From: a virus
Reading direction: 5' to 3' (one strand)
IMG/VR virus record: IMGVR_UViG_3300043313_001352
Span: 1 to 64,000 of that record
DNA: 64,000 nt
Below, piece by piece: positions 26,626 through 53,193 of the stretch; the first letter of the stretch is position 1; each line of letters starts with the position of its first letter. The notes under the pieces are model-generated. The model was not told the origin of the DNA. It searched no databases and saw nothing but the letters and a program-made list of their open reading frames with translations. The translations under genes and the position numbers were made by a program.

Positions 26626-26700
26626 CTGACGTTTACGCAGCGTCACCGCATCCCGCATCCCCTCTGACTGCACGCTGTGGTAGGCTTACGTCAGTAAGCC
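26626..26700 (+). promoter_or_regulatory. Phased activator-type promoter (gap 40)
   Basis: CTGACGTTTACGCAG (26626-26640), 40 bp, then TGTGGTAGGCT (-10 at 26681-26686) and palindrome GGCTTAC/GTAAGCC (26683-26700). Confidence 0.75.
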
Positions 26701-30872: not shown

Positions 30873-30876
30873 CGCA

Positions 30877-35466: not shown

Positions 35467-35488
35467 GCCCGCCCCGAGAGGGGCGGGC
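35467..35488. terminator. Hairpin terminator
   Basis: GCCCGCCCC/GGGGCGGGC with loop GAGA, followed by TTTCTC. Confidence 0.75.
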
Positions 35489-35508
35489 TTTCTCGCGCCA
35501 GAACAGCA

Positions 35509-35594: not shown

Positions 35595-35617
35595 AGGAAA
35601 CGACGAAAGGACACCCT

Positions 35618-36500: not shown

Positions 36501-36613
36501 TGGGGCAGAAGTGGTGGCCCACCTCGCCCGGCATCCCGGCGGCAGGACACGTCACCGCCAGCGGGTTCTGGCATCCCGGTGGGGGTCACAACTGCGATCG
36601 CTGCAAGGGCTAG
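36500..36613 (+). CDS. Tiny Gly/His-rich protein, 37 aa
   Basis: TGATG overlap with the previous gene. MGQKWWPTSPGIPAAGHVTA opens it, and it ends GGGHNCDRCKG, a His/Cys metal-binding pattern. Existence rests on the coupled start and the conserved-looking end. Confidence 0.45.
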   Translation: MGQKWWPTSPGIPAAGHVTASGFWHPGGGHNCDRCKG

Positions 36614-36655
36614 GGTGCGCCGCATGGATCCCCTGATCGCCTACCTCAAGCGTCG

Positions 36656-36682
36656 CGCCGCCCAGTTCATCACTGGGCGGCG
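36656..36682. terminator. Hairpin terminator
   Basis: CGCCGCCCAGT/ACTGGGCGGCG, 11 bp perfect, loop TCATC, followed by TGTTCGTTT. Confidence 0.8.
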
Positions 36683-36707
36683 TGTTCGTTTCGCCAGCGC
36701 GAACCCA

Positions 36708-36801
36708 CTGACGTTTACGCCGAGCTGCCCCAGGTGCCTGGCCGCGCATCCCTCGAACTCACAGCGTCTGCCGAGGTGATGTGATAAACTGACGGAGTCA
36801 G
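36708..36801 (+). promoter_or_regulatory. Phased activator-type promoter (gap 62)
   Basis: Motif 36708-36722 (ends CGCCG). Gap 62, GTGATAAACT (-10 TAAACT at 36785-36790), palindrome CTGAC/GTCAG (36789-36801). Confidence 0.7.
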
Positions 36802-36842
36802 AGAGACCAAACGACACAACGACGCACGACGAAAGAGACCAC

Positions 36843-37583: not shown

Positions 37584-37604
37584 TCGACCCGCATCAACTC
37601 AAGG

Positions 37605-37631
37605 ACCCCCGGCGCCACTGGCGTCGGGGGT
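37605..37631. terminator. Hairpin terminator
   Basis: ACCCCCGGCGCC/GGCGTCGGGGGT with loop ACT and a G-T pair. Confidence 0.75.
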
Positions 37632-37657
37632 TCGTGCGTTCGAGGGGCGAGACGTCA

Positions 37658-37745
37658 CTGACGTTTACGCAGCTCGCCTGCACGGCCGCACCAGGCTGGG
37701 CTTGAGAACTGACGCGACGGTGTGGTATTCTTACGTCAGTAAGAA
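37658..37745 (+). promoter_or_regulatory. Phased activator-type promoter (gap 53)
   Basis: Motif 37658-37672 preceded by GACGTCA. Gap 53, TGTGGTATTCT (-10 at 37726-37731), palindrome TTCTTAC/GTAAGAA (37728-37745). Both arms changed together relative to the GCTTAC type. Confidence 0.75.
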
Positions 37746-37768
37746 CAACGACGAAGGGACACACCGAC

Positions 37769-38089
37769 ATGAGTTTCTCCATCCCGCGCCCCGACTGGGT
37801 GACCGACCAGTCGATCGGCCGCCGCGGCGAGTACGCCCAGTTCCAGATGTTCACGCGTGAGGCCAACGACGCCGTAGCCACCATGGTGCTGGCGATCCTG
37901 AGCGACGCGGTGCGTCTGGGTCCGCCGCGCACCGTGGTGATCGAGGCGATCCAGCAGGGCGTCCGCAACCTCACCCGGCGCTTCCCCGAGATCCACGACA
38001 CCGAGCCCGAGTGGGCGATCACCGACGCGGTGAACCACTACCTCGACATGCGTGAACTGCCCAAGACGAGCCGCGAGGAGTTGTTCTGA
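37769..38089 (+). CDS. Hypothetical helical protein, 106 aa
   Basis: GAAGGGA precedes ATG 37769. Mostly helical (NDAVATMVLAILSDAVRLG, TVVIEAIQQGVRNLTRRFPEI). Unrecognised. Confidence 0.65.
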   Translation: MSFSIPRPDWVTDQSIGRRGEYAQFQMFTREANDAVATMVLAILSDAVRLGPPRTVVIEAIQQGVRNLTRRFPEIHDTEPEWAITDAVNHYLDMRELPKTSREELF

Positions 38090-38454
38090 TGAGCGAGCCC
38101 GAGATCCACATCGACGTCGACCCGATGCTGTACCTGGCCGCGTTCATCGAGGACAACCTCGACACGATCGACCACCTCAAGAGCGCGGGCGACATGATGG
38201 GTGCGCCGGAGTTCGCCGGTGCTGTGGCGTCGGTGGGCCACGACGCGATCGCACACGCCCACGAGCAACTGGAGTCGCTGATCGCTGCGGACAAGACCTG
38301 GCAGCCCTGCTACGGGACGTGGTGCGTCATGGTCTACGAGGACACCGATCCCGAGATGGGCGACATCAACCGCTGCACGGTGCACAACTACCTGGTGCTC
38401 GGGGACATCTACGTCTGCGAGGGCTACCAAGCCCCGCCGTACGTCGGGCCATGA
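38089..38454 (+). CDS. Hypothetical protein, 121 aa
   Basis: TGATG overlap. Acidic helical N-terminus, then TWQPCYGTWCVMVYEDTDPEMG and CTVHNYLVLGDIYVCEGY with four cysteines. Unrecognised. Confidence 0.65.
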   Translation: MSEPEIHIDVDPMLYLAAFIEDNLDTIDHLKSAGDMMGAPEFAGAVASVGHDAIAHAHEQLESLIAADKTWQPCYGTWCVMVYEDTDPEMGDINRCTVHNYLVLGDIYVCEGYQAPPYVGP

Positions 38455-38738
38455 GCCGCACCAACGTCTACCGGGACGGCAAGGTGCACGTGATGGAGGC
38501 CAAGTGCTCCACGTGCATCTACCGGCCCGGCAACCTGATGCACCTCGAACCAGGTCGCAAGGACGCGATGCAGGCCGACGCGATCGCTGACGAGGGTGTG
38601 ATCCCGTGCCACAAGACGATCCACGGTGCGCGCGAGCAGGAGAGCGTCTGCCGGGGGTTCTTCGATGTCGCCAAGCACGAGGGGCTGCTGGCCGTGGCCG
38701 AGCGGATGGACATCATCGAGTTCACGCCCACCGCGTGA
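38451..38738 (+). CDS. Conserved Cys-rich phage protein, 95 aa
   Basis: ATGA overlap. KCSTCIYRPGNLMHLEPGR, then GVIPCHKTIHG and SVCRGFFDVAK. The CxxC, CH and C set resembles a metal or iron-sulfur site found in a small actinophage family with CSTCIxRPGNLMxL. Role unknown. Confidence 0.75.
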   Translation: MSRTNVYRDGKVHVMEAKCSTCIYRPGNLMHLEPGRKDAMQADAIADEGVIPCHKTIHGAREQESVCRGFFDVAKHEGLLAVAERMDIIEFTPTA

Positions 38739-38778
38739 GCCGCACGCCGACAGAGTTCTGTCGGTGCTGCGTGGTGGA

Positions 38779-38884
38779 CTGACGTTTATGCAGAGCTGGC
38801 CCGAGGTCCCCCCGCCACCACCTCCCGATCCCATGGCTGGATTGGGCAATCCAGATTCCCCATGTTACGATTACGAGGTAATCG
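38779..38884 (+). promoter_or_regulatory. Phased activator-type promoter, diverged (gap about 71)
   Basis: Motif variant CTGACGTTTATGCAG (38779-38793). The -10 is less clear (ATGTTACGAT near 38865). Palindrome CGATTAC/GTAATCG (38868-38884). Confidence 0.6.
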
Positions 38885-38913
38885 AACATGACCCAGAGAC
38901 GAAGGACGAAGCG

Positions 38914-39279
38914 ATGACCAGCACGATGGAGAAGCCCGCCAAGGGCAAGAAGGGCAAGGGCGCCAAGACGCCGACCACCAAGGACAGCCGCATCGCGGAC
39001 GTCACTGCGGTGCTCGCCAGCGTCGATGCAGGTGAGGCGCTGCGCGACCGGATCAAGGCCATGCAGGCCGAACTCAAGATCCACGAGGACAACGTCAAGG
39101 ACGCGCTGGGCGAGGCCACCACCGGCGTCGATGCCAAGGGCAAGGTCGTGGTGCGCTACCCGTTCCGCAACCGCTCGGGTCTGTCGAAGGAGAAGGTCAA
39201 GGACCGGCTCTCCCCGACCGACTACGCCGAGTGCGAGACGGTCACCGAGTACCGCACCCTGCTCTACGGCGAGGGCTGA
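38914..39279 (+). CDS. Hypothetical protein, 121 aa
   Basis: GAAGGA upstream. A Lys/Gly-rich N-terminal tail, a helical segment (DRIKAMQAELKIHEDNVKDALGEATTG) and VVVRYPFRNRSGLSKEKVKDRLSP. Related-looking proteins accompany phage recombination genes, but no nuclease partner is visible here. Confidence 0.65.
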   Translation: MTSTMEKPAKGKKGKGAKTPTTKDSRIADVTAVLASVDAGEALRDRIKAMQAELKIHEDNVKDALGEATTGVDAKGKVVVRYPFRNRSGLSKEKVKDRLSPTDYAECETVTEYRTLLYGEG

Positions 39280-39284
39280 GCGCC

Positions 39285-39647
39285 ATGTGGATGAACGAGC
39301 ACGAGGTCGAGGAGACCTTCGACCGCCTCGACAGCGCCCACCCGGCAGTGCCGAACCTCGCGGCCGGAGCATCCGTGCTGGACGCGCTGGTCGCCTGGAC
39401 CAACGCCAACTCCGACGGCTGGCCCTACTGGCAGAAGCCGTCCAAGGCTGCCAACAGCCTGATGACGGTGCTGCACAACCGGGACTACGCGATCCGGTTC
39501 GGCCACGACCGTGAGGGCAAGCCGCTGGAGGACATCACCACGGCTGAGCTGGCCCTGGTGCTGCGCCCGATCAAGGCGTTCCTGACCCGGCAGGAGATCG
39601 ACTGGAACGCCGACCTGCCGTGGGCGGCGCTGTTCCCGGCTGCTTGA
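39285..39647 (+). CDS. Hypothetical protein, 120 aa
   Basis: ATG 39285 follows the previous stop by five bases. Helical, Trp-rich (LDALVAWTNANSDGWPYWQKPSKAANSLMTVL). Unrecognised. Confidence 0.65.
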   Translation: MWMNEHEVEETFDRLDSAHPAVPNLAAGASVLDALVAWTNANSDGWPYWQKPSKAANSLMTVLHNRDYAIRFGHDREGKPLEDITTAELALVLRPIKAFLTRQEIDWNADLPWAALFPAA

Positions 39648-39665
39648 GCCTGTCGAGAGGATGGA

Positions 39666-39718
39666 CCTAGCCCGGCTTCCGCTGCAGTCCCCCCACTGCC
39701 GGAAGCCGGGTCTAGGCT
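39666..39718 (+). promoter_or_regulatory. Terminator hairpin fused to a -10 element
   Basis: CCTAGCCCGGCTTCCG pairs with CGGAAGCCGGG plus CTAGG across a C-rich loop (39666-39716). TAGGCT (39713-39718) lies on the 3-prime edge of the stem. No CTGACG motif precedes it; the hairpin replaces the usual palindrome. Confidence 0.55.
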
Positions 39719-39744
39719 GTCCCCAAGCGACGAAGGGACGAACG

Positions 39745-39948
39745 ATGTACGTGCACCGGGACAAGCGAGGCGGGGTCACCCTGACCCCCGACGAGGCAGA
39801 GATCACCGACCTGTTCTTGCTGTTCGTCCTCGAAGGCGAGGACATTCCGGAGGCCGCGCAGTACGCCCTCTCGGCGACTCCGAACCCGGACCCCAAGTTC
39901 GCTGCCTGGCTGCGCCAGGGGATGCTCAGCCACGAGCGAGCTGACTGA
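39745..39948 (+). CDS. Hypothetical protein, 67 aa
   Basis: GAAGGGA upstream of ATG 39745. Acidic, helical (DEAEITDLFLLFVLEGEDIPEAAQYAL). Its stop lies inside the next activator motif. Confidence 0.65.
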   Translation: MYVHRDKRGGVTLTPDEAEITDLFLLFVLEGEDIPEAAQYALSATPNPDPKFAAWLRQGMLSHERAD

Positions 39949-40020
39949 CGTTTACGCAGCCCAGGCGCACCGCACGAAGCGCAGGCTGTCCACGTCCTGT
40001 GGTAAACTGTCCTTAGACAG
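39945..40020 (+). promoter_or_regulatory. Phased activator-type promoter (gap 43)
   Basis: Motif 39945-39959 overlaps the stop codon of the previous gene. Gap 43, TGTGGTAAACT (-10 at 40003-40008), palindrome CTGTC/GACAG (40007-40020). Confidence 0.75.
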
Positions 40021-40040
40021 AACGACGAAAGGACACCCGC

Positions 40041-40226
40041 ATGGACCCGAACGAGACGCTGCAGATCATCCGCAACACCATCGCGCAGATGCGTGTGGAC
40101 GAGCACCCGGCCATCCGCAAGCAGCACGCTGACGACCTGGCCGAGCACTTCGAGGCGCTCGATGAGTGGCTGTCCAACGAGGGCTTCCTGCCCGGCGCGT
40201 GGGCGATCCCCGGCGAGCGTGGCTGA
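40041..40226 (+). CDS. Hypothetical helical protein, 61 aa
   Basis: GAAAGGA upstream. TLQIIRNTIAQMRVDEHPAIRKQHADDLAEHFEALDEWL is helical throughout. Unrecognised. Confidence 0.65.
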   Translation: MDPNETLQIIRNTIAQMRVDEHPAIRKQHADDLAEHFEALDEWLSNEGFLPGAWAIPGERG

Positions 40227-40375
40227 TGGACCCGTACTGCGAGGACTGTGGGCTCAGCCTGCACGCGCAGGCCGAGAAGGCGATCGCCTCCGGTGAGTGG
40301 CAGATGGTCTGGGCCGACGCCGACGGCTCCTGGATCTGCCCGCAGACCGGCAACGAGCACCGGCCGCAGAACTAG
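40226..40375 (+). CDS. Small zinc protein, 49 aa
   Basis: TGATG overlap. DPYCEDCGLSLHAQ...DADGSWICPQTGNEH is a compact CxxC...C...H motif. Its stop overlaps the stop of the convergent gene. Confidence 0.6.
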   Translation: MDPYCEDCGLSLHAQAEKAIASGEWQMVWADADGSWICPQTGNEHRPQN

Positions 40376-40620
40376 GCCGAGGCGCTGCTCTGCATCTTGT
40401 TCAGGCGCTCCTGCAGTTCAGCGATCTGCGACTGGATGTGCTCGGCATCCACGCGACCGCGAGGCTTCGGCTCGACACCCTCCAGCGCAGCCTGCTGGCT
40501 GTAGAGCGTGTCGAACTCGCCCTGGTGCTGGTTGATGAGCAGCTGCGTGGCGCGGTAGCGCGCCCGGTTCGCCGCACGCACCTGGGCCTTGTGCTTGTCG
40601 GGATCTGATCGAGTGACCAT
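40372..40620 (-). CDS. Leftward helical protein, 82 aa
   Basis: ATG 40620 has GAAGGAAG upstream. A basic N-terminus (SDPDKHKAQVRAANRARYRATQLL) and a C-terminal coiled coil (HIQSQIAELQERLNKMQ). Could be a small DNA-binding or regulatory protein. Third of the short leftward genes in the rightward early region. Confidence 0.65.
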   Translation of the reverse strand: MVTRSDPDKHKAQVRAANRARYRATQLLINQHQGEFDTLYSQQAALEGVEPKPRGRVDAEHIQSQIAELQERLNKMQSSASA

Positions 40621-40794
40621 GAGAGTTCTTCCTTCGGGTTGTCTTCCGTCGCTGGGCCAGTTGCTAGACCCCAGACAACCGGCTGTGCCGAATACGACCA
40701 GGGTCTAGGGTCGTGATCCTTGTGCGGATCCTGTTCGGTACTGCTGAGTGTACCGCAGTCCACGTCTCGTTCCGCCAAACAGGCCCAGAAGCTA
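40621..40794. other. Gene-free upstream part of a long intergenic region
   Basis: Contains the start region of the leftward 82-residue gene, with GGGTCTAG on each strand. No RNA gene is recognised. Confidence 0.5.
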
Positions 40795-41049
40795 CTGACG
40801 TTTATGCAGACAGGGCTGTACCCGCAACCACGCGGGGCAATCATGCGGGCTGTGGCAGGCTCAGCGTGCTGAGCCGGGACACACCTACTGAGCAGGGCAA
40901 ACGCCGCACGACGTTGTGTCGGTGGGGTGCCCTAGGGTCAGGACCGTTAGCCAACCTCAGTGCTGACCACACATCTAGACCAGCAGCAGACCACCCGCCC
41001 CGCGATTATGGGGTGACGCAATCCTGTGGTAGGCTCTGGGTACAGAGCC
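40795..41049 (+). promoter_or_regulatory. Activator motif and promoter of the MoxR gene (outlier gap 220)
   Basis: Motif variant CTGACGTTTATGCAG (40795-40809) lies 220 bp before TGTGGTAGGCT (-10 at 41030-41035), whose palindrome is GGCTCTG/CAGAGCC (41032-41049). Between them are GGCTCAGC/GCTGAGCC (40858-40875) and two GGTCTAG/CTAGGGTC-like words. Looping or a lost promoter may explain the distance. Confidence 0.55.
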
Positions 41050-41078
41050 AGACAGTGAACGACGAAAGGACGCATGAC

Positions 41079-42416
41079 GTGAGTACCAAGAGCACCGCCG
41101 TGATGATGCAACTCGCCACGGCCGATGGGGATTCCAAGCAGCAGATGGTGGTCTTCGCCAACAAGGCGGTCTACCGCCGCAGCCTGACCGAGGGCACCCG
41201 CACCCGCTGGCGCTACGCCAGCGTGGGCGACCTGCCGACGTGGGTCGAGGGCTACGTGAACCTCACGCAGGCCGCGCCCACCCCGATGAGCATCAGCCAC
41301 GGCGCCACCCTGATGGAGGTCACCGAGGACGAGGCAACCGAGGCCGAGGGCGGCGCGTTCCCGAGGAACGTGGGGCTGCGCTACTCCCGCGTGATCGACG
41401 CGATGGACGCGGACCCGACCAGCAACGTCCCGACACCGGACGTGAAGCAGTACGTGCAGGACTGGCTGGACGCGCAGGGCCGCGACGACAACGCGTGGAT
41501 CGACACGCACGTGCACTCCGCAGGCACGTGCGTGATCAAGCCCGCCGCACCTGAGCCTGAGCCGGAGGAAGAGCCGGAGGTCACCGTGGCCACCACGACG
41601 GGCGGCTGGACCTACCCCGAGACCAAGGGCGGCTACATCACCCGCCCGAACGGGACCAAGTACAAGGTCCGCACGCTGGACGGCACGCCCGACGTGCAGG
41701 TGATCCGCGAGGCTCGCCCCGACCGCGAGCACGTGTTCCTCTACGGCGAGCCGGGGACCGGCAAGACGGCACTGGTCGACTCCGCATTCGGCACCGATCT
41801 GGTGACCATGCTGGGCACCGAGGACACCGAGGTCGCGGACTTCATCGGCGGCTACACCGTGCGCGGTGGCGGCTCCTACGGCTGGACGGACGGCGCGCTC
41901 ACCGAAGCCATGGAGCGCAAGGTCCCGCTGTTCATCGACGAGATTGGGGTGATCGCTCCCAAGGTGCTCACCACCGTGTTCTCGGTGATGGACGGCCGCG
42001 ACGAGATTCGGATCACCGCGAACCCCGACCGGGGCATCGTGACCGCTGGGCACGGCTTCTTCGTGCTGGCAGCCACGAACCCGCACGCTCCCGGCGTGCG
42101 GCTCTCCGAGGCGCTGCTCTCCCGGTTCGCGATCCACCTTGAGGTCGGCAGCGACTACTCCGTGTGCCGCGAGATGGGGGTGCCGGACGTGCTGGTCACC
42201 GCCGCCGAGAACTTGGACAAGCGCCGCGCCACCGGCGAGATTGGCTGGGCACCGCAGATGCGTGAACTGCTCCGCGCCAAGGCGCAGTGGACCAAGCGCG
42301 GCGACGCGTTCGCGATCCGCAACCTGATCAGCGGCGCACCCGAGGACGACCGCGAGGTCGTGGCCGAGGTCATGGCCCGCACCACCGGGAAGAAGTTGAC
42401 CGGGCTGGTCCTCTGA
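41079..42416 (+). CDS. MoxR/CobS-type AAA+ ATPase
   Basis: 445 residues. GEPGTGKT (223-230) is Walker A, LFIDE (284-288) Walker B, N334 in ATNPH sensor 1, and SRF (348-350) the arginine finger. The first 210 residues are a separate domain with an acidic Pro/Glu linker near 156-170. MoxR ATPases remodel partner proteins and work with VWA proteins; the next gene is such a partner. GTG start with GAAAGGA upstream. Confidence 0.9.
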   Translation: MSTKSTAVMMQLATADGDSKQQMVVFANKAVYRRSLTEGTRTRWRYASVGDLPTWVEGYVNLTQAAPTPMSISHGATLMEVTEDEATEAEGGAFPRNVGLRYSRVIDAMDADPTSNVPTPDVKQYVQDWLDAQGRDDNAWIDTHVHSAGTCVIKPAAPEPEPEEEPEVTVATTTGGWTYPETKGGYITRPNGTKYKVRTLDGTPDVQVIREARPDREHVFLYGEPGTGKTALVDSAFGTDLVTMLGTEDTEVADFIGGYTVRGGGSYGWTDGALTEAMERKVPLFIDEIGVIAPKVLTTVFSVMDGRDEIRITANPDRGIVTAGHGFFVLAATNPHAPGVRLSEALLSRFAIHLEVGSDYSVCREMGVPDVLVTAAENLDKRRATGEIGWAPQMRELLRAKAQWTKRGDAFAIRNLISGAPEDDREVVAEVMARTTGKKLTGLVL

Positions 42417-42421
42417 GACTT

Positions 42422-42451
42422 CCGCCCCGCGTCGTTGCAGGCGCGGGGCGG
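42422..42451. terminator. Hairpin terminator
   Basis: CCGCCCCGCG/CGCGGGGCGG, 10 bp, between the ATPase and VWA genes, so the two are separate transcription units. Confidence 0.7.
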
Positions 42452-42532
42452 GGGACCGTTCACAGTGAACGGCTCTGTAGTCGCTGGCGTCAGCTCGCAG
42501 TCGAGCTGGCGCCAGCGCAGCCAGGAACCGCA

Positions 42533-42640
42533 CTGACGTTTACGCAGCCAGGCGCGCTGGACACGGCGCAGGCGTGGACAGGGCGAGGGTGCACCAGTTT
42601 GGTAATGACTGGCTCATGGTGTAAACTGAGGTTACGAGGT
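42533..42640 (+). promoter_or_regulatory. Phased activator-type promoter (gap 74)
   Basis: Motif 42533-42547, gap 74, GGTGTAAACT (-10 at 42622-42627). The downstream palindrome is weak (CTGA/TCAG around GGTTACGAGG). Confidence 0.65.
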
Positions 42641-42687
42641 CAGGGTGACTCCCGGCCACACAGACAGAACGACGAAAGGACAGGGCC

Positions 42688-44523
42688 ATGGGCCACATCT
42701 TGTACGGCAAGGTCGAGAGCACTGTGAACAAGAGCGACGACGACTGGTACGGCGTCGCGGCGCAGGTCGGCAAGTTCACGAACAAGCGTGCGCACCGCAC
42801 CGATATCACCGCAGTCGTGTCCAGCACTGCTGGCATGGGCGCTCCCGCGTGCTTCATCCCCTCGCTCGCTGAGATGCACATCAACACCGAGGCCGCTCCC
42901 ATGGGTCCTCCCGACAAGGTCAATCTGGACGACCGCATGTGGATGCTCACCTACGCCCCGAGCGTGGGCGCGTGCACCCACGAAGCGGCACACGCCCGCC
43001 ACACGCACTGGGACCCCCGCGACCTGATGGAGAACTACGAGGCCACCCGCAAGATGGTCGACGTGATCACCACGCTGGAAGAGCCGCGCATCGAGGCACA
43101 GGCGCTGCGCTTCCACCCTGACTCGCGTCCCTTCCTGCGGGGCTGCGCGATGGAGATTGTCGGGCGCGACTTCGTGATCCCCGACTCCCGGTACGGCGCT
43201 GCCGCTGCTGCTGGTCTGCTGCTGGCGCGGGTCGATGCCAAGGTGCTCACGCGCCGCGAGGCGTCGACGTTCCGCCGCGATATCGCTGCGGTGCTGGGCG
43301 AGACGCTGGACGTGTTGGAGCCGCTGTGGCAGCGCTTCCTGATGCTGCACGACCACGACTACGCGGGCATGGTGGAGATTGCCGCCGCGTGGCTGGACGC
43401 GCTGGGCGAGGACCCCGAGGACGCCTCCGAGATGGTGGGCGAGTCGATGATGGGCGAGCCGCTTCCCGGCGACCCCGGCGAGGATGACGGCTCTGGCAAG
43501 GGCGAGGGCGGCGAGGGTGAGGGCGACGAGTCCAAGGGTGAGGCGTCCGGCTTCGGCGACAAGATCATGGGCAAGGTGCACATCACCGAGTCCAAGATGG
43601 ACAAGGAGGTCACCGAGGCTCGCGGCGAAGAGCGCGCCGAGCGTGCTCGCGCCGAGCGCCGCACCGACGCCGAGCGCCGCAAGGCTGCCGAGGGTCCGCA
43701 CGCCGAGGCGTTCGCGCACACCGGGCTGCACGGCTACACGCCGGACGGGTTCGCGCACTACGCGGGGTCACGCCCGCCGAGCGCCGACGAGCGCCGTGCG
43801 GCCAAGTCGCTGGCCCGGTCCTTGGAGAAGATCGACTACCGCGACCGTGCGGTGACCAAGGTCCGCAGCGTGGTGCCTCCCGGCCGTCTGGTCGGGCGGG
43901 CTGCGGTGCAGGCCGACGCGATGACCGAGCAGGGCCGGGACGCCTCCGGTGTCGAGGTCTGGTCCGGCAAGCGCCGCAAGCGCGTCGAGTCCACGCCGCT
44001 GACGATCGGGTTCCTCGGGGATATCTCGGGGTCGATGAACGCAGCCATGGAGCCGCTGGCATCGAGCCAGTGGGTCGTGAGCACCGCAGGCGCGCACGTG
44101 GATGCCAAGGTCGCCAGCGTGCACTTCGGTGATCAGGTGCACGGCATCACGCCCGCTGGCGTGCGGGAGAAGGACGTGCGCCTGTTCGCGCCGTACGACG
44201 GCAGCGAGGCGTTCAAGGACGCAGCGCTGGCGATCGACAAGGAACTGAACCTGCTGGACGGGCGGGGTGCTCGCATCCTGTTCATCGCCAGCGACGGGCA
44301 GTACGTGAACGGCACCGATATGGCCTACGCCGCGAAGTGGATTCCGTTGGCCAAGCGCAAGGGTGTTGCGGTGATCTACCTCAACTTCCTCGGGTCGATG
44401 AACCCGACCGGCGTGGCCGGGTCCAAGGTGATCGACTGCGTCCGCAAGTCTCCCGCCGAGGTCGCCGCGCTGTGCGGGAAGATCGCGATCGCGGAGGTCC
44501 GCAAGATCGACCAGCGGGTCTAG
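42688..44523 (+). CDS. VWA-domain protein with zincin-like N-terminal domain
   Basis: 611 residues. THEAAH (97-102) followed by LEEPRIE (131-137) fits a zinc metallopeptidase-like domain (HExxH plus downstream Glu). An acidic Gly/Asp/Glu linker (about 245-290) and a basic helical part follow. The C-terminal VWA domain carries DISGSM (445-450), the metal-binding MIDAS motif. The layout resembles CobT-like partners of MoxR/CobS ATPases. Probably forms a remodelling or proteolytic complex with the upstream ATPase; the substrate is unknown. Confidence 0.85.
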   Translation: MGHILYGKVESTVNKSDDDWYGVAAQVGKFTNKRAHRTDITAVVSSTAGMGAPACFIPSLAEMHINTEAAPMGPPDKVNLDDRMWMLTYAPSVGACTHEAAHARHTHWDPRDLMENYEATRKMVDVITTLEEPRIEAQALRFHPDSRPFLRGCAMEIVGRDFVIPDSRYGAAAAAGLLLARVDAKVLTRREASTFRRDIAAVLGETLDVLEPLWQRFLMLHDHDYAGMVEIAAAWLDALGEDPEDASEMVGESMMGEPLPGDPGEDDGSGKGEGGEGEGDESKGEASGFGDKIMGKVHITESKMDKEVTEARGEERAERARAERRTDAERRKAAEGPHAEAFAHTGLHGYTPDGFAHYAGSRPPSADERRAAKSLARSLEKIDYRDRAVTKVRSVVPPGRLVGRAAVQADAMTEQGRDASGVEVWSGKRRKRVESTPLTIGFLGDISGSMNAAMEPLASSQWVVSTAGAHVDAKVASVHFGDQVHGITPAGVREKDVRLFAPYDGSEAFKDAALAIDKELNLLDGRGARILFIASDGQYVNGTDMAYAAKWIPLAKRKGVAVIYLNFLGSMNPTGVAGSKVIDCVRKSPAEVAALCGKIAIAEVRKIDQRV

Positions 44524-44537
44524 CCCGCACCCAAGCC

Positions 44538-44613
44538 GGGGTCCGGCTCACCGACTCGTCATCGGGCTGCGTGAGGTCGTTACGTCCTTTCGTCCCTCAC
44601 CGAGCCGGACCCC
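44538..44613 (+). ncRNA. Structured intergenic element (terminator or leader RNA)
   Basis: Outer arms GGGGTCCGGCTC (44538-44549) and its complement (44602-44613), 12 bp perfect. Inside, GTGAGG/CCTCAC (44571-44576, 44594-44599) flanks a U-rich loop. The 131 bases between the VWA gene and 44655 lack both the CTGACG motif and a TGTGGTA box. Confidence 0.5.
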
Positions 44614-44654
44614 ACCTAGCACGACAACGACACAACGACAGAACGGAGCACGGC

Positions 44655-44849
44655 ATGTTGAACACAACGATCAAGGACTGGCAGGTGGTCTGCGGGCTGC
44701 GTTGCCGGTGGGGCTTCCGAGCCGCTGACGGCACGGAGGTCTGGCGGCAGCGCGGCATCGCGCTGGCAGTGCTGCGCAAGGACACCACCGTGTTCCTGCT
44801 GCGGGTGCCCTACACGCTGCGCACCTACCCAGGGGTGGTGTGGTCATGA
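44655..44849 (+). CDS. Hypothetical protein, 64 aa
   Basis: ACGGAGCA precedes ATG 44655. DWQVVCGLRCRWGFRAADGTEVWRQRGIALAVL is beta-like with two cysteines. Unrecognised. Confidence 0.6.
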   Translation: MLNTTIKDWQVVCGLRCRWGFRAADGTEVWRQRGIALAVLRKDTTVFLLRVPYTLRTYPGVVWS

Positions 44850-45187
44850 GCACCCCTGACTTCCGCAACGAGGACCCGGTCTGGGTCCGGTACGCCGAGA
44901 TGACCAGCGGCGGGCACGACAAGTTCTACGAGCTGACCATCCACCTGCACGACGACGGCCTCTTCTACGTCCAGAAGCGGTGGGGCCGACGCCCCGACGC
45001 GGGCGGCGGGCAGATCAAGGTCGAGTACTACGCGAGCCTGGACTCCGCGCAGGGCATCGCGATCGGCATGCTCCGCGAGAAGTTGGCCAAGGGCTACCGC
45101 GAGGTCGAGCGCCCCTTCGGCGCCGGGCAGCGAGTCCGCCGTGAGCACGGGCCGGACTTCTACGCCGAGGGCACCGAGGCGTTCTAG
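44846..45187 (+). CDS. WGR-domain protein
   Basis: 113 residues. YELTIHLHDDGLFYVQKRWGRRPDAGGGQIKVEYYASLDSAQGIAIGML...KLAKGYREVE in outline: the WGR motif is explicit, with the GQ strand, the helix and the KGY ending. WGR domains bind nucleic acid ends in PARPs and occur in bacteria beside MoxR/VWA-type genes. Here it lies just downstream of the VWA gene. ATGA overlap. Confidence 0.8.
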   Translation: MSTPDFRNEDPVWVRYAEMTSGGHDKFYELTIHLHDDGLFYVQKRWGRRPDAGGGQIKVEYYASLDSAQGIAIGMLREKLAKGYREVERPFGAGQRVRREHGPDFYAEGTEAF

Positions 45188-45195
45188 CCGCATCA

Positions 45196-45219
45196 ACCGG
45201 CCGCCGCCTGGCGGCCGGT
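45196..45219. terminator. Hairpin terminator
   Basis: ACCGGCCGCC/GGCGGCCGGT with loop GCCT, followed by TTCGG. Confidence 0.8.
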
Positions 45220-45236
45220 TTCGGCAGTGACGTCTA

Positions 45237-45320
45237 CTGACGTTTACGCAGCCTGGCGGCTACCTGGTGGGCTGGCCTGGTTTGCCTGCTGATCTAGATG
45301 GTGTAGACTGTTCTCAACAG
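45237..45320 (+). promoter_or_regulatory. Phased activator-type promoter (gap 52)
   Basis: Motif 45237-45251, preceded by a partial second copy (GTGACGTCTA). Gap 52, GGTGTAGACT (-10 at 45304-45309), palindrome CTGTT/AACAG (45308-45320). Confidence 0.75.
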
Positions 45321-46805: not shown

Positions 46806-47405
46806 ATGGACGGCATCCGGGACGGCTTCGGCGACGACCCCACCGTGGACGAGGTGCTCGCCGAGGAGGAGGAGTTCCTCGTCCGCAACGCCCGCAACGC
46901 GCTGGTCAAGAAACTGGGCCGGGGCTTCCCCGCCGGAGCCGATGAGGACGCTGTCCAGGAGGCCCGCATTGCGGCCTGGCAGTCCTGGGAGAAGAACCAC
47001 AACCGGGCCTACCTGAACATCGCCGCCCGGCAGCGGCTGATGCAGCACGTCTACCGCGACCAGTGGTTCGGCACCAAGCCGACGGCGCACGAGAAGGACC
47101 CGATCCGCCGGGCCAACCGGGACAGCTTCGATGACCCGGACAACGGCATTGACGTTCTGGTCAACTCGGCGACCTGGGTCGACCAGGTGCTGCTCGCCTA
47201 TCACCACGGCGAGATCCACCAGGCGCTGGACGCACTGACGTTTACGCAGCGCGAGTACGTGGTGCTGCGCTTCTGGGGCGGGATGTCGGACACCGAGATC
47301 GCTGCGCACCAGGGGAAGACACGGGGCGGAGTGTCTTCGGTGTGGCACAAGACCATCCGCCCGGCGCTCGCCTCTCAGTTGGAGTTGTTGAGCGACCTGT
47401 GCTAA
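46806..47405 (+). CDS. Sigma-70-family (ECF-like) sigma factor
   Basis: 199 residues. Region 2-like helices lie at about 47-88 (ADEDAVQEARIAAWQSWEKNHNRAYLNIAARQRLM) and region 4 at about 137-190 (REYVVLRFWGGMSDTEIAAHQGKTRGGVSSVWHKTI), including the HTH that reads promoter DNA. It would redirect host RNA polymerase to phage promoters. The DNA encoding LTFTQ (144-148) is exactly the CTGACGTTTACGCAG motif. No ribosome site is obvious before ATG 46806. Confidence 0.8.
   Translation: MDGIRDGFGDDPTVDEVLAEEEEFLVRNARNALVKKLGRGFPAGADEDAVQEARIAAWQSWEKNHNRAYLNIAARQRLMQHVYRDQWFGTKPTAHEKDPIRRANRDSFDDPDNGIDVLVNSATWVDQVLLAYHHGEIHQALDALTFTQREYVVLRFWGGMSDTEIAAHQGKTRGGVSSVWHKTIRPALASQLELLSDLC
47235..47249 (+). 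promoter_or_regulatory. Activator motif inside the sigma gene
   Basis: Exact CTGACGTTTACGCAG within the coding sequence, 153 bp before the -10 of the next gene (TAAACT at 47403). Confidence 0.65.
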
Positions 47406-47422
47406 ACTGTTCCTAGGAACAG
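47399..47422 (+). promoter_or_regulatory. Promoter with perfect 16-bp palindrome
   Basis: TGTGCTAAACT (-10 at 47403-47408) overlaps CTGTTCCTAGGAACAG (47407-47422) and the stop codon of the sigma gene. The palindrome is nearly identical to that at 26235. Confidence 0.7.
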
Positions 47423-47446
47423 ACCAACGACGAAGGACGAACTGAC

Positions 47447-47932
47447 ATGACTGATCTCCCCACCGGCTACCGCTGGGCCACCGCCGAAGAGACCGAGGCG
47501 CACGCCGTCACGGAGAACCCGATGATGGTCGTGGTGCCCCGCACCGTGGACTCCTCGGGTACGCCGTACACCGAGGGCGAGGCTGACCTCGCGCTGCCCA
47601 TCGACCTGCCCCGTGACGAGGACGGTTTCATCGAGACCTCCGCCGTGCACGGCGAGATGTGGATGGTGCACATCCAGTGGACCGAGGACCACGACGGCCG
47701 CGTGATCGACCCGGAGCACGAGGAGTACCCGGAGACCTTCCACGGACCGTTCTTCAGCCAGCAGGAGGCTGCTGACTGGTCCAACGCCTACCCGGAGTTC
47801 ACCGAGATCCACGACATGTACGTCAAGAACCTCAACCTGGTACGGCCCACCGGGCTGCCGACGATCACCGCGAAGACCGTGGCGTACGCCGACGGCATGT
47901 CCGCCGCCCGTGCCGACCTGGGGCTCCGATGA
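47447..47932 (+). CDS. Hypothetical acidic protein, 161 aa
   Basis: GAAGGA upstream. Acidic, beta-rich (HGEMWMVHIQWTEDHDGRVIDPEHEEYPETFHGPFFSQQEAADW). Unrecognised. Confidence 0.7.
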   Translation: MTDLPTGYRWATAEETEAHAVTENPMMVVVPRTVDSSGTPYTEGEADLALPIDLPRDEDGFIETSAVHGEMWMVHIQWTEDHDGRVIDPEHEEYPETFHGPFFSQQEAADWSNAYPEFTEIHDMYVKNLNLVRPTGLPTITAKTVAYADGMSAARADLGLR

Positions 47933-48336
47933 GCACGCTGCCTGCCCTGGTCAAGGACGTCTCCGGCCAGTACTACGGCGGAGCGTTCTGGAACAGCGCC
48001 GACTACCGCGTCAAGATCGTGGCGCTCGACGGCACCGGGAAGAACTTCCGGATGACCGTGGAGACCGCCAGCGGCAGTGAGGTCGGCGAGTACGAGTTCG
48101 GCATGGCCGAGGTCGAGGGCATCGCCCGGATGGCCTCCACCGACCACGGGCTCGGCGCCTACCAGGACGACTGGACCATCCCGTTCGGGATGGGCCGGGT
48201 GCTGACCTGGGACCTGCCCACCATCGAGCACCACCTGGTCACCGTGGACGAGGACGTCGTCGAGGAGATCGCCGCGTGGCTGGAGTACGCCACCGGCGAG
48301 AAGGTCTGGGATGGCGGAGAGGACTGGGAGTACTGA
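47929..48336 (+). CDS. Hypothetical protein, 135 aa
   Basis: ATGA overlap. Mixed alpha/beta (WNSADYRVKIVALDGTGKNFRMTVETASG), acidic C-terminus. Unrecognised. Confidence 0.65.
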   Translation: MSTLPALVKDVSGQYYGGAFWNSADYRVKIVALDGTGKNFRMTVETASGSEVGEYEFGMAEVEGIARMASTDHGLGAYQDDWTIPFGMGRVLTWDLPTIEHHLVTVDEDVVEEIAAWLEYATGEKVWDGGEDWEY

Positions 48337-48569
48337 TGAGCACCTTCATCCGCAGCGCCGAGCACATCATGGCTTCAGTTGCTGACGCCATCGACGCCAT
48401 CGACGACGGCGACATCGACATCCACACGATCAGCCTGGTGCTCAACGGCCAGCACGGGGAGTTCGACCTCCGCATCGAGGCCACCGACGACGACATGGAA
48501 GACCGGCTGTGGACCGGCATCGCACACCGCGGTGGCGGCATCACCGATCTCGGGGAGGTGCTGGACTGA
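48336..48569 (+). CDS. Hypothetical acidic protein, 77 aa
   Basis: TGATG overlap. SVADAIDAIDDGDIDIHTISLVLNGQHGEFDLRIEATDDD is acidic and alpha/beta. Unrecognised. Confidence 0.6.
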   Translation: MSTFIRSAEHIMASVADAIDAIDDGDIDIHTISLVLNGQHGEFDLRIEATDDDMEDRLWTGIAHRGGGITDLGEVLD

Positions 48570-48766
48570 TGGTGCTGCCACTGACGGTCACCGTGGTCGC
48601 CTGCCTGGCCATCATCGTGATGACCAGGCCGACGTTGCAACGCGACGTCGATGGCGTTGTTCAGCCACGCACCGTGGTCGTGCTCGCGAAGCTCTCGATG
48701 CTGGCCGCCATCATCGTCGGCGGCTGGTCGATCTTCGTGCTGATCGCCATCCAACTCACACCCTGA
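48569..48766 (+). CDS. Two-span membrane protein, 65 aa
   Basis: TGATG overlap. Hydrophobic segments LPLTVTVVACLAIIVM and VVVLAKLSMLAAIIVGGWSI, then IFVLIAIQLTP. Unrecognised. Confidence 0.65.
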   Translation: MVLPLTVTVVACLAIIVMTRPTLQRDVDGVVQPRTVVVLAKLSMLAAIIVGGWSIFVLIAIQLTP

Positions 48767-48777
48767 CTGACAACAAC

Positions 48778-48798
48778 CCTGTGGTACTCTGTTACCAC
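48778..48798 (+). promoter_or_regulatory. Promoter with GTGGTA/TACCAC palindrome
   Basis: TGTGGTACTCT gives -10 TACTCT (48785-48790). GTGGTA (48781-48786) and TACCAC (48793-48798) form the palindrome. No CTGACG motif upstream. A CAACGACGCAACGAC leader and AAGGAG follow. Confidence 0.65.
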
Positions 48799-48827
48799 GC
48801 AACGACGCAACGACAAGGAGAACTGAC

Positions 48828-49697
48828 ATGGCACGTGTGACCCACGTCCGCAAGGCGCAGCAGCGCTACGAGACCGTCCCCGTCATCGACGAGGCCACCG
48901 GGGAGCCCAAGCGCACCCAGGTGATGAAGAACGGCGAGCCCAAGATGACCCGCGCGAAGGCCGGTCGCCCCGCCCGCCCGGTCTTCATGACCGTCACGGT
49001 GCAGGACAAGACCAAGCCGCTGCCGCCGTACACCTGCGACTCGTGCCACCAGCCCATCGAGGTCGGCACGCCGTACAAGCACATCACCCCGAAGAGCGGT
49101 CCGTACGGCGGGCACAAGCGCACTCGGCACGAGTCCTGCCCGACCTGGCAGGTCTGGGAGTACAGCAACTCCTGGAGCGCTCGGATCGCCCAGGCCACGC
49201 ACGACTTCGACGTCAGCAACGCCGAGTCCACCGATGACGTTCAGAGCGCTCTCGACGACGTGGCGGCTGCCATCAAGGAGCTGGCCGAGGAGTCCCGTGA
49301 GACCGCTGGCAACATCGAGGACGGCTTCGGTCACCCGACGTCGCAGTCGGAGGAGGCCGAGCAGCGTGCCGACGACCTGGACGGCTGGGCCGACGAGATC
49401 AGCGGTGCCGACATCCCGGACCTCCCGGAGCCCGAGCCGCGGTGGTTCGTCACCAACGGCGACGGTGTCGCCTCGGACCTGTTCGAGGAGGACGGCTACG
49501 ACTCGGAGATGGACGCCGAGCAGGCGCTCGCCTCTCACCGTGACGACAACGACGAGGAGCCTGGCGAGGACGGCGAGTTCGACGACGGGTTCGAGATCGA
49601 GGAGATCACCCCGGACGAGCCCACCGAGGAGCAGCTGAACGACTGGCGTGACGAAGTCCTGGACGCTTGCTCGATCGTCGACGAGAGCCCCGTCTGA
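48828..49697 (+). CDS. Conserved phage protein with zinc motif and acidic coiled coil, 289 aa
   Basis: ARVTHVRKAQQRY at the start is typical of an actinophage family. YTCDSCHQPIEVGTPYKHI...KRTRHESCP gives a treble-clef zinc motif near 64-107. An acidic helical part (about 135-185) and a very acidic, disordered C-terminus follow. Function unknown; an interaction scaffold or nucleic-acid-binding protein is plausible. Confidence 0.75.
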   Translation: MARVTHVRKAQQRYETVPVIDEATGEPKRTQVMKNGEPKMTRAKAGRPARPVFMTVTVQDKTKPLPPYTCDSCHQPIEVGTPYKHITPKSGPYGGHKRTRHESCPTWQVWEYSNSWSARIAQATHDFDVSNAESTDDVQSALDDVAAAIKELAEESRETAGNIEDGFGHPTSQSEEAEQRADDLDGWADEISGADIPDLPEPEPRWFVTNGDGVASDLFEEDGYDSEMDAEQALASHRDDNDEEPGEDGEFDDGFEIEEITPDEPTEEQLNDWRDEVLDACSIVDESPV

Positions 49698-49999
49698 TGG
49701 CCGCCGAGGAACTGACGACCTACCAGGTCGAGGTGCTCGTCGAGGTGAAGATGGCCGGTGACGAGAACGCCGCGTACACCGCGGTCGACGAGATCATGCA
49801 GCGTGCCTGGGACACCGATGACGGTCGCAAGTGGGTGCAGCCCAAGTGGCACTTCGAGATGCTGGAGGGCTGCGTCGGTCTGGCCGATGCGCTCCGAGAT
49901 GTCGTCGGCGATGCGTGTGAGTCGCACGCTGAGTTCGAGCCCGGCTGCTCCACCTGCGTGGCACTGAGCCTGCTCGCCACCCGTGAGGTGACGTCATGA
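49697..49999 (+). CDS. Hypothetical protein, 100 aa
   Basis: TGATG overlap. Alpha/beta N-terminal part (YQVEVLVEVKMAGDENAAYTAVDEIMQRAW) and a Cys/His ending (CESHAEFEPGCSTC). Unrecognised. Confidence 0.65.
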   Translation: MAAEELTTYQVEVLVEVKMAGDENAAYTAVDEIMQRAWDTDDGRKWVQPKWHFEMLEGCVGLADALRDVVGDACESHAEFEPGCSTCVALSLLATREVTS

Positions 50000-50349
50000 G
50001 GCAACTGGACCTCACCGTCTTCGAGCCCGGCGACACCGTCGGCACCCTGTCCCAGGACGGCCGGGTCTCACTGTGGACGGTCTCCCCTGAAGGCGGGCTG
50101 ACCCGTGCCGACAACCGGCTGTTCGGAAACGCCACTGGGTTCGACCTGGACACCCCCATCGAGCAGCTCAACCTCCAGGTGCGCACCTTCAACCTGCTCA
50201 AGCGCGAAGACGTCAACACGGTCGGCGACCTGCTGACGTTTACGCACGAGAAGGGCGACGAGGAGATGCTCGCGATCCGCAACATGAGCCAGAAGAACGT
50301 CGACGAGATCAGGAACTGGGCCACCAGGCTGAGGAGCGAACGACCGTGA
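49996..50349 (+). CDS. RNA polymerase alpha C-terminal-domain-like protein
   Basis: 117 residues. Residues 52-112 (PIEQLNLQVRTFNLLKREDV, NTVGDLLTF, EMLAIRNMSQKNVDEIRNWATRL) align with bacterial alpha-CTD. R63, N66 and K100 match the DNA-contacting R265, N268 and K298 of the E. coli domain; the conserved Gly before the Lys is Ser here. The N-terminal 50 residues are unrelated to alpha. It could bind promoter DNA, replace or imitate host alpha-CTD, or be an activator in its own right. The DNA for LLTFTH carries a copy of the CTGACGTTTACGCA motif. ATGA overlap. Confidence 0.75.
   Translation: MRQLDLTVFEPGDTVGTLSQDGRVSLWTVSPEGGLTRADNRLFGNATGFDLDTPIEQLNLQVRTFNLLKREDVNTVGDLLTFTHEKGDEEMLAIRNMSQKNVDEIRNWATRLRSERP
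50233..50247 (+). promoter_or_regulatory. Activator motif inside the alpha-CTD-like gene
   Basis: CTGACGTTTACGCAC, one mismatch to the consensus, in the same reading frame (LTFTH) as the copy inside the sigma gene. No -10 follows at a standard gap. Confidence 0.6.
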
Positions 50350-50567: not shown

Positions 50568-50872
50568 GCATGCTGCTGAAGACCGCCCTGGTGCTGTACA
50601 TGCTCGCCACCGCAGCGACCGGTGCGTTGTCGGCCTTCGCCATCGCGGTCGACGCCTGGCCGTTGGCGATCGCCATCATCGCGGTCTGGATGTTCGGCTG
50701 GAGCCCGCTGGTGATCGTGGGCTACGCCGAGCTGGAGCGGCGCCTCGACGCAGAAGCTGGAGCTGGCCCGCCTGCGCAAACGTCAGTGGGACGTCATCGG
50801 GCCGACGGCCCAGCTGACCCAGCTGGCGACCAGGTGGAGCGGTTCCATCTCCTTGAGGAGCTGGCCTCGTGA
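50564..50872 (+). CDS. Two-span membrane protein, 102 aa
   Basis: GTGA overlap. Hydrophobic segments LKTALVLYMLATAATGALSAF and AWPLAIAIIAVWMFGWSPLVIVGY, then a soluble tail with low-complexity Ala/Gly/Pro. Unrecognised. Confidence 0.6.
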   Translation: MSMLLKTALVLYMLATAATGALSAFAIAVDAWPLAIAIIAVWMFGWSPLVIVGYAELERRLDAEAGAGPPAQTSVGRHRADGPADPAGDQVERFHLLEELAS

Positions 50873-51197: not shown

Positions 51198-51280
51198 CTG
51201 ACTTTTCCGCTGTAGCTAGCACCGTTGCGCCAGCTGAAGCTACCCGTCGGTCGACATCCCGTGGACCGGTCGGTTAGAGT
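51198..51280 (+). promoter_or_regulatory. Diverged activator-type promoter (gap 62)
   Basis: AACGTCA then CTGACTTTTCCGCTG (51198-51212), a degenerate copy of the motif. TAGAGT (51275-51280) follows at a gap of 62, the most common class. A clear palindrome is missing. Confidence 0.5.
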
Positions 51281-51331
51281 AGTACAAATCAACCATCAAC
51301 ATGAACCATCAACGACATGAAGGACAGCACC

Positions 51332-51865
51332 ATGACCCGATTCATCACCGTGCACGTCGGCTGCGACTGGCCGACCTGCGAGACCGTCGCCCCTGAAGGC
51401 GAAGGCATCGTCATCGAGAAGGTGCTGTCCATCGACGGCAAGCAGGGACGGTCGTTCCTGCTCTGCAAGAAGCACGTCGACGAGTTCGAGTCGGTCGTGC
51501 TGCCGTTGATGCAGGCCGGGGTCAAGGTCGAGCAGCCCAGCTCCAGCTCGCGGTCGCGGTCGAAGTCGGCCGGAACGTCATCGACGTCCGGCAGCTCAAG
51601 CCCAGCTGCGCCGCTGAAGGCCGACGAGGATGGCACCCATCCGTCGCTGGTCTGCAAGGTCGACGGCTGTGAGCGTCACGGTCGCCCGCTGTCCAACCGG
51701 ACCGGGATGGCCCAGCACGCCATCCGTAGCCACGGCTACGCCGATCTCGCCGCCTACGAGGCGGAGTTCGGGCCGGTCGCCACCGTCCCGCGCAAGAACA
51801 CCAAGAACACCTCACCGTCGGTCGAGGGCACGGTTGCCCCGGTCGACGAACCATCCATCAGCTGA
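51332..51865 (+). CDS. Zinc-finger DNA-binding protein, Lsr2-like layout
   Basis: 177 residues. An N-terminal beta/alpha domain (about 1-70, FITVHVGCDWPTCETVAPEG...LLCKKHVDEFESVVLPLMQAGV), a Ser/Arg-rich linker (75-97) and a C-terminal C2H2 finger (VCKVDGCERHGRPLSNRTGMAQHAIRSHGY). The split into dimerisation-like domain, flexible linker and DNA-binding domain recalls Lsr2, but the sequence match is weak. GAAGGA precedes ATG 51332. Confidence 0.65.
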   Translation: MTRFITVHVGCDWPTCETVAPEGEGIVIEKVLSIDGKQGRSFLLCKKHVDEFESVVLPLMQAGVKVEQPSSSSRSRSKSAGTSSTSGSSSPAAPLKADEDGTHPSLVCKVDGCERHGRPLSNRTGMAQHAIRSHGYADLAAYEAEFGPVATVPRKNTKNTSPSVEGTVAPVDEPSIS

Positions 51866-51883: not shown

Positions 51884-52636
51884 ATGAGTACCCCGACGCA
51901 CTACGAGCGAGCTGCCGCGGTCGCGGATGAGCTGCTGGCTGCGCACGAGCGTGGTGAGTCGGTCTCCGCGATGGCCGAGGAGCACGGTCTCCGTCGCGAG
52001 GCGATCGCCAGCGAGCTGGCCAAGCACGGCATCGGTGAGCCGTCGCCCGCACGGGAGGCGGTCCTGGAGTACGTCCGGGCCAACCCCGGTCTGTCGGTCG
52101 ACGACCTCTCGCTGCGCCTGGACCTGAGCAAGTCATCGGTCTCCCGGTACCTGCGCGGGACGCCGGAGCATCGGTTGGTGGTCAGCCGCAAGGTCTCGCC
52201 GACGCAGCGGTTCACTGATCAGCAGATGGCGGATGCTCTCAAGGCTGCGTTCCGGCAGCTCGACGATCGGTCGAAGGGCCTGTCCCGGAAGCGGTACCGC
52301 GAGATCATGGAGGGCCAGGACGTGCCCGCGGCGGCCACCTACATCCGTCGCTACGGGACCTGGTCGGAGGCGTGTCGGTTGGCCGGGGTCACCGCGGCGA
52401 AGGCCCGGCGGACCAACTACGTCCAGGACTGGAGCAACGACCAGATCGTCGACGCGGTCGCCGAGTTCGTGAACACCACCGGTCAGCTCAGCTACCACGC
52501 TTACGCAGCGTGGGCGCGCGAGCACGACAAGCCGTCGGGTCCCCTCCTCGTCCAGAGGCTCGGCGGTTGGGCCAAGGCGAAGACCCTGGCCATGTCCCAG
52601 TTCGAGACCGACGACCGGACGGTTGCGGTCGCCTAG
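51884..52636 (+). CDS. HTH protein with homing-endonuclease-associated repeats
   Basis: 250 residues. Two N-terminal HTH-like units (ESVSAMAEEHGLRREAIASELAKHG, and LSVDDLSLRLDLSKSSVSRYL) are followed by two repeats ending YIRRYGTWSEACRLAGV and LVQRLGGWAKAKTLA. These match the repeat often attached to HNH homing enzymes. No nuclease domain is present, so a transcription regulator is more likely. CAGGAGG upstream. Last rightward gene of the early region. Confidence 0.75.
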   Translation: MSTPTHYERAAAVADELLAAHERGESVSAMAEEHGLRREAIASELAKHGIGEPSPAREAVLEYVRANPGLSVDDLSLRLDLSKSSVSRYLRGTPEHRLVVSRKVSPTQRFTDQQMADALKAAFRQLDDRSKGLSRKRYREIMEGQDVPAAATYIRRYGTWSEACRLAGVTAAKARRTNYVQDWSNDQIVDAVAEFVNTTGQLSYHAYAAWAREHDKPSGPLLVQRLGGWAKAKTLAMSQFETDDRTVAVA

Positions 52637-52702: not shown

Positions 52703-53193
52703 GTATGCCCTCTTGGCAAGCGGTTGCCGGTCTAGATAGGCTTAGGTCACCTTGGCCAAGGTGCCGTTGACAAAGCCGGTACCCTCACGCACGGGACGTC
52801 GTCGCGGCGGAAGGGTGCCGAACGGGACGTTCGGTCGCCTCGAATGGTCTGGTACCAGGCCGGTCGCCAGCTGGCGGTCGCCGATCGAACGTCACTGACG
52901 TTTATGCAGGGTGGCCCAGCTCACCGTCGCCTGGCGGCCTCTGCTGAGGATCCACCGATATCGCCCGGCAGCTCGGCGAGCTGGCGGCCAGCTGGGCGCC
53001 CCGGTGCGTTTCGTCAATGACGTTGGCGTTCAACGGGCGCCTGGCGGCCCAGCTGGCCGCGGCCCAGCGACCTGGTCGAGGAGCTACCCGTCGGTCGCGA
53101 TCGCCGATAAGGGTCATTATGTAAGCCAGATACCGGATAAGTCGGACACGGTCGACCCGTTGACGACGGAATCAGTTGTACAGCGGTACAGAT
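52703..53193. other. Gene-free convergent region with orphan motif and palindrome
   Basis: About 490 bases without a gene. It has a perfect 16-bp palindrome CACCTTGGCCAAGGTG (52748-52763), an orphan activator motif CTGACGTTTATGCAG (52895-52909) with AACGTC upstream but no -10 at a standard gap, and GGGTCATTATGTAAGCC near 53113, which looks like a leftover right arm of a promoter palindrome. Probably a decayed promoter-gene unit. Confidence 0.5.

Follow-up and report, generated by a model that had tools for sequence, protein, structure and literature searches.

Here, we describe a free-standing copy of the C-terminal domain (CTD) of the RNA polymerase alpha subunit, encoded 2.6 kb downstream of a sigma-like gene in a large virus of actinobacteria. 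We show that both genes carry, within their coding sequences, copies of a 15-mer, CTGACGTTTACGCAG, that recurs upstream of about twenty promoters of the same virus at whole helical turns. The DNA analysed (the window) is 64,000 nucleotides long and is part of a 114-kb virus record, IMGVR_UViG_3300043313_001352. By terminase the virus stands closest to large actinophages: DSL-LC01 at 55%, and phages of Microbacterium and Gordonia at 43–50%. It is collinear with one 177-kb IMG/VR contig, IMGVR_UViG_3300043313_001192, called G1 below. Both open reading frames (ORFs) are present as first annotated, with ATG starts, and both are kept in G1 (Table 1).

A free-standing alpha-CTD

The first-pass annotation had aligned the product of 49996–50349 with the alpha-CTD through its whole core, and this assignment holds. 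Against PF03118, the comparison that had been proposed, the protein scores 56.4 bits (E = 2.5e-15, cut-off 23.8), with residues 51–107 aligned to positions 11–63 of the 67 in the profile; its G1 counterpart scores 58.7 bits, and the profile search returned no helix-hairpin-helix family besides PF03118. NCBIfam matches are RpoA models, except for one weak match to BREX PglW, and sequence matches in the PDB are nearly all RpoA, with actinobacterial (mycobacterial) RpoA on top. An AlphaFold model based on a 25-sequence alignment (predicted local distance difference test, pLDDT, 81) has values above 90 in the CTD and of about 54–76 in the N-terminal part, where three strands are predicted; the alignment took in RpoA CTDs, so this model leans on RpoA. 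A model from the two phage sequences alone had a pLDDT of 43 and was set aside. In Foldseek, the top matches are RNA polymerase alpha-CTDs (8hih_G and 7vpd_S, root-mean-square deviation 1.5–1.8).

The DNA-contact residues of the 265 determinant, R63, N66, N96, K100 and E104, are invariant; they correspond to R265, N268, N294, K298 and E302 in E. coli numbering. R63, N66 and K100, rightly singled out at first pass, are invariant across the phage pair and 80 actinobacterial RpoA CTDs. With the alpha-CTD of actinobacterial RpoA (M. tuberculosis, S. coelicolor) the phage domain shares its fold and 20 of the 38 columns whose conservation among those 80 domains is 90% or more. It departs from RpoA in having Leu for Cys269, Asn for Ser299 and Ser for Gly296 (Gly in G1), and in a 4-residue insertion in the loop matching the 287 determinant, the activator-contact surface of the domain. 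Profile searches gave no family match for the N-terminal ~50 residues, and neither Pfam-type nor NCBIfam profiles of alpha N-terminal domain (NTD) families matched anywhere in the 117-aa protein, which is therefore unable to assemble into polymerase as an alpha subunit. We conclude that 49996–50349 encodes a genuine free-standing RNA polymerase alpha-CTD.

Comparable proteins occur in other phages. The 'RNA polymerase subunit alpha' of Bacillus phage vB_BmeM-Goe8 (QDP42789.1) is also small, with a C-terminal alpha-CTD (PF03118, 78 bits) and no alpha NTD match, but it is 210 aa long, has another N-terminus and belongs to the Herelleviridae. Actinophage examples are the Akonivirus proteins annotated 'DNA binding protein' in the Microbacterium phages Atraxi (gp24) and Mazun (gp26), which have 139–141 aa and a C-terminal PF03118 match (43 and 50 bits, respectively); they differ in the N-terminal region and are without the 4-aa insertion. 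In a structure library, entries from uncultured phages and from Mycobacterium phage Mithril also bear the name 'RNA polymerase alpha subunit C-terminal'. Given the free alpha-CTDs of Goe8, Akonivirus and Mithril, the part itself is not unprecedented. Our literature search found no study of a phage-encoded free alpha-CTD, and we came across no earlier case in which one is combined with a phased regulon and intragenic sites. The GenBank phages whose terminases are nearest (DSL-LC01, A3Wally, GMA2) yielded no alpha-CTD. Candidate free-standing relatives in bacteria were rejected, since the matches to the RpoA-containing alignment proved to be RpoA genes or RpoA ends at contig edges, as were several matches in unannotated 'phage' records, by appearance bacterial contamination.

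Phased promoters of the early region

With up to 3 mismatches allowed, the 15-mer has 26 matches where 1.5 would be expected; almost all of them share one strand and fall between 26 and 53 kb. Most precede an extended −10, TG(n)TAnnnT, that is accompanied by a weak −35. Distances from 15-mer to hexamer cluster at 40/43, 52–53, 61–64 and 72–74 bp; with the hexamer counted as −12 to −7, the 15-mer centres fall at about −60 to −63, −72/−73, −81 to −84 and −92/−94. At a period of 10.5 bp the phasing gives a Rayleigh R of 0.83 (p = 1.7e-5) here and of 0.75 (p = 1.2e-4) in G1. When promoters of the two genomes are paired by orthologous downstream gene, their spacings differ by whole turns (9, 10, 12, −12 or 22 bp) or by at most 2 bp; the one near 42.6 kb, with a distance of 74 bp here and of 89 bp in G1, is an exception.

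These promoters resemble the class I promoters of E. coli CRP. CRP class I sites may also be centred near −92. The phage centres coincide with the CRP optima of −61.5, −71.5/−72.5 and −81.5/−82.5, all on one helix face, activity being lost at −66.5 and −76.5 (PMC6301791). The site lies upstream of the −35, on a single helix face, and several phased distances are allowed, as in class I; the phage promoters differ in the site itself, in the activator, which is putative, and in their actinobacterial host. The phasing and the match to the CRP optima together bear out the class I geometry claimed at first pass. Among viral contigs scanned for the 15-mer plus −10 pattern, repeated sites are found only in G1, and the single matches in other contigs look like chance.

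Nothing among the present findings points to the alpha-CTD protein as the binder of the 15-mer; a candidate is the product of 51884–52636 (Table 1). Several sites vary the pattern. At 40795–40880 the 15-mer and a perfect repeat, GGCTCAG/CTGAGCC, occur in both genomes with a −10 that is without TA (CAGGCT here, GAGGCT in G1). A degenerate 15-mer (3 mismatches) at 51198–51280 stands 62 bp before TAGAGT, upstream of the gene 51317–51865, with equal spacing in G1. The first early promoter, 26233–26276, has an inverted repeat and in neither genome a 15-mer; it precedes a 92-aa gene that is possibly immediate early. In the non-coding stretch 52850–53010, between converging gene blocks, a 15-mer is preceded by ACGTCA, giving the palindrome ACGTCACTGACGT, and many GGCGGTCGCC/CAGCTGGC-like repeats are present.

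The −10 elements carry a second feature, an inverted repeat with arms of 5–8 bp that starts at base 3 of the hexamer (base 4 or 5 in some promoters) and extends past the presumed start site (26681–45320 here, 26524–45240 in G1). Repeats with arms of at least 6 bp number 16 on the + strand of each genome and 0 on the − strand, with about 0.7 in shuffles. Covariation of the arms shows in the 16 distinct arm pairs and in compensatory differences between the promoter at 37658 here and that at 37615 in G1. The percentage of paired positions is an overestimate, since the instances had been selected as hairpins. A 5′ RNA hairpin was considered and rejected, as the invariant TAnnnT overlaps the first arm and the usual start would thus fall after that arm. 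With regard to N4-type hairpin promoters, PF00940 gave no match in the virus, nor in control genomes. A promoter-like sequence without the 15-mer at 48779–48799, before the gene at 48828, has its repeat placed differently; this repeat also covaries (GTGGTA/TACCAC here, GTGATA/TATCAC in G1).

Copies of the 15-mer within the sigma and alpha-CTD genes

A link absent from the first-pass annotation is that the 15-mer lies inside both the sigma and the alpha-CTD genes (Table 1). In the latter it coincides with the 287-determinant loop that bears the 4-residue insertion. The probability of these codons given the peptide is 9e-4 for each gene, a low value because TTT makes up 2% of Phe codons. Synonymous reshuffling predicts 0.08 coding copies per genome against 3 observed in each; the third of these lies on the reverse strand near 50.8 kb, in an ORF of doubtful status. 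LTFT peptides are written in the exact motif codons in the sigma and alpha-CTD genes, and not in other genes. In both genomes the sigma copy is followed, 153 bp on, by the extended −10 at 47403.

The sigma-like protein

Signatures of sigma regions 2 and 4 had been reported for 46806–47405, and TIGR02983 (3e-12) and TIGR02937 (9e-11; score 41.6, cut-off 42.9) indeed span both, each under its curated cut-off. The region 4 profile gives a split result: PF04545 scores 24.2 bits here, just above the cut-off of 24.1, and 23.6 in G1. Region 2 (PF04542) reaches 18 bits against a cut-off of 24. Like factors of the ECF (extracytoplasmic function)/SigE family, the protein has its putative regions 2 and 4 within some 200 aa; unlike them, it stays under every NCBIfam family cut-off. 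On these profile matches we treat it as a divergent sigma-70/ECF-like factor with putative sigma activity. With their TGnTAnnnT and weak −35, the early promoters look like ordinary promoters of the host sigma, and so are probably read by something other than the phage sigma.

Table 1. Coordinates of the genes, 15-mer copies and promoter elements discussed in the text
Position	Strand	Feature	Remarks
46806..47405	+	Sigma-70/ECF-like protein, regions 2 and 4	199 aa; profile matches; 95% identical in G1
49996..50349	+	Free-standing RNA polymerase alpha-CTD protein	117 aa; N-terminal part of ~50 aa, then CTD; PF03118, fold; 78% identical in G1
47235..47249	+	15-mer in sigma gene	exact; encodes LTFTQ; identical in G1
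50233..50247	+	15-mer in alpha-CTD gene	14/15; encodes LTFTH; identical in G1
47403..47422	+	Extended −10 TAAACT over sigma stop codon	inverted repeat CTGTTC-CTAG-GAACAG
26626..26640	+	First upstream 15-mer	
26681..26700	+	Example promoter, extended −10 TAGGCT	repeat GGCTTAC-GTCA-GTAAGCC from hexamer base 3
27188, 28348, 29312, 30142, 31055, 31881, 32640, 33678, 34482, 35509, 36708, 37658, 38779, 39945, 40795, 42533, 45237	+	Further upstream 15-mers	start positions
45237..45309	+	15-mer and −10 promoter of the gene run ending in the sigma gene	hexamer at 45304
50772..50786	−	Reverse-strand 15-mer copy	1 mismatch; counterpart nearby in G1
51884..52636	+	Winged helix-turn-helix and HNH_repeat DNA-binding protein	93% conserved; one candidate 15-mer binder

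Elsewhere, the early region encodes an antirestriction ArdC-type protein (34607–35458), and at 41079–44523 a MoxR-type AAA ATPase adjoins a 611-aa protein resembling a von Willebrand-type partner. In the virus record outside the window, 82384–94734 on the − strand encodes a protein of 4116 aa that contains collagen-like repeats and probably belongs to the tail or a fibre.

Discussion

We favour, at a probability of roughly 0.4, an interpretation in which the early programme depends on an activator and is switched in trans by the alpha-CTD mimic together with the phage sigma. The early region would be run as a class I-type regulon, in which a DNA-binding protein occupies the 15-mer on the helix face shared with polymerase at the −10 and recruits host RNA polymerase with its primary sigma via the host alpha-CTD. 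Where activator, alpha-CTD and sigma meet, the phage alpha-CTD protein, which keeps the DNA contacts but has a remodelled activator-facing loop and no alpha NTD, would then intervene in trans. Most likely it would be a decoy or adaptor through which activator-dependent transcription of the early genes is altered or brought to an end; the phage sigma might direct core polymerase to other promoters. Through the intragenic 15-mers, expression of the switch proteins could depend on whether the same regulator is bound, as a form of feedback. In favour of this interpretation are the PF03118 match and the fold, the kept DNA contacts and the insertion at the 287 determinant, the phasing in both genomes with spacing changes of whole turns, the agreement with the CRP optima and the excess of intragenic copies. 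The homologies, the promoter anatomy and the conserved intragenic sites are thus observed, and the steps of action are inferred from them.

Several observations weigh against it. Both acidic residues of the 261 determinant are lost here (Q57, N59), G1 having E and D; no promoter can be recognised downstream of the 15-mer in the alpha-CTD gene. The profile scores of the sigma-like protein lie near the cut-offs, and a word search for a second promoter class that this sigma might use gave only the AACGAC leader and ribosome-site words. The start sites of the 15-mer promoters are presumed ones. The phasing fits a looping repressor equally well, and the alpha-CTD protein may bind DNA without having any role at polymerase.

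It is possible, though rather unlikely, that a phage repressor has the 15-mer as its operator and loops from there to a second site over the −10/+1 repeat. The phasing would then reflect loop geometry, and the intragenic copies might be auxiliary operators or roadblocks, by analogy with lac O2 and the stoperators of mycobacteriophage L5, which are likewise repeated asymmetric sites across a genome. Phasing alone does not tell activation and looping apart; CTKACG, found in about half of the promoter repeats, recalls the 15-mer halves CTGACG and TTTACG; and there are intragenic sites that have no promoter. Many promoter repeats are without CTKACG, however, and a single sequence-specific repressor does not require arms that covary. 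The promoter-linked 15-mers also lie upstream, at class I-type positions, and promoters whose −35 is weak or missing would seem to need activation.

Two further explanations concern the alpha-CTD protein itself. It may be a positive co-activator whose N-terminal domain docks on RNA polymerase or on the activator, adding a phage-specific alpha-CTD contact. The separate N-terminal domain, with its three predicted strands, and the combination of an altered 287-determinant loop with intact DNA contacts are in line with this; yet that domain matches no family and is modelled at the low pLDDT given above, and we regard the proposal as doubtful. Alternatively, the protein might be a small RpoA-derived helix-hairpin-helix DNA-binding protein that makes no polymerase contact. 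Its DNA-contact residues are the best preserved, and the Akonivirus proteins are annotated in such terms; but the similarity covers the whole CTD, the best matches are actinobacterial RpoA, and the gene itself contains the regulon's 15-mer, all of which make this explanation unlikely.

More improbable still is that the phage supplies a replacement class I contact in trans, the alpha-CTD protein and sigma jointly retargeting host RNA polymerase, with autoregulatory intragenic 15-mers and a complete bypass of host activator control. The suggestion made at first pass, that the phage rebuilds host polymerase at both the sigma and the alpha contact points, goes beyond the data, as neither an alpha NTD nor a promoter class for the phage sigma was found. 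Finally, it is very hard to credit that the intragenic 15-mers arose by coincidence from the coding of common peptide motifs: sigma region 4 often begins LT..Q, but the rarity of TTT, the excess of coding copies and the codons of LTFT in other genes all argue otherwise.

T4 provides a parallel in AsiA/MotA and Alt/ModA, phage proteins that act on sigma and the alpha-CTD, although T4 modifies or remodels host subunits rather than supplying a copy of the alpha-CTD. We know of no sequence relation of these proteins, or of the L5 stoperators, to the present system. What is new here is the presence of conserved 15-mers within the sigma and alpha-CTD coding sequences and of a covarying repeat at the −10 hexamers. 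Host alpha and sigma are known targets of phages, which modify, cleave or block them; to tie a free alpha-CTD by a shared DNA site to phased class I promoters would be another route, that of contact-surface mimicry. The roughly twenty class I-type promoters, with spacings that change by whole turns from one genome to the other, also form a natural set in a GC-rich actinophage, on which the decoy, co-activator and repressor models can be tested directly.

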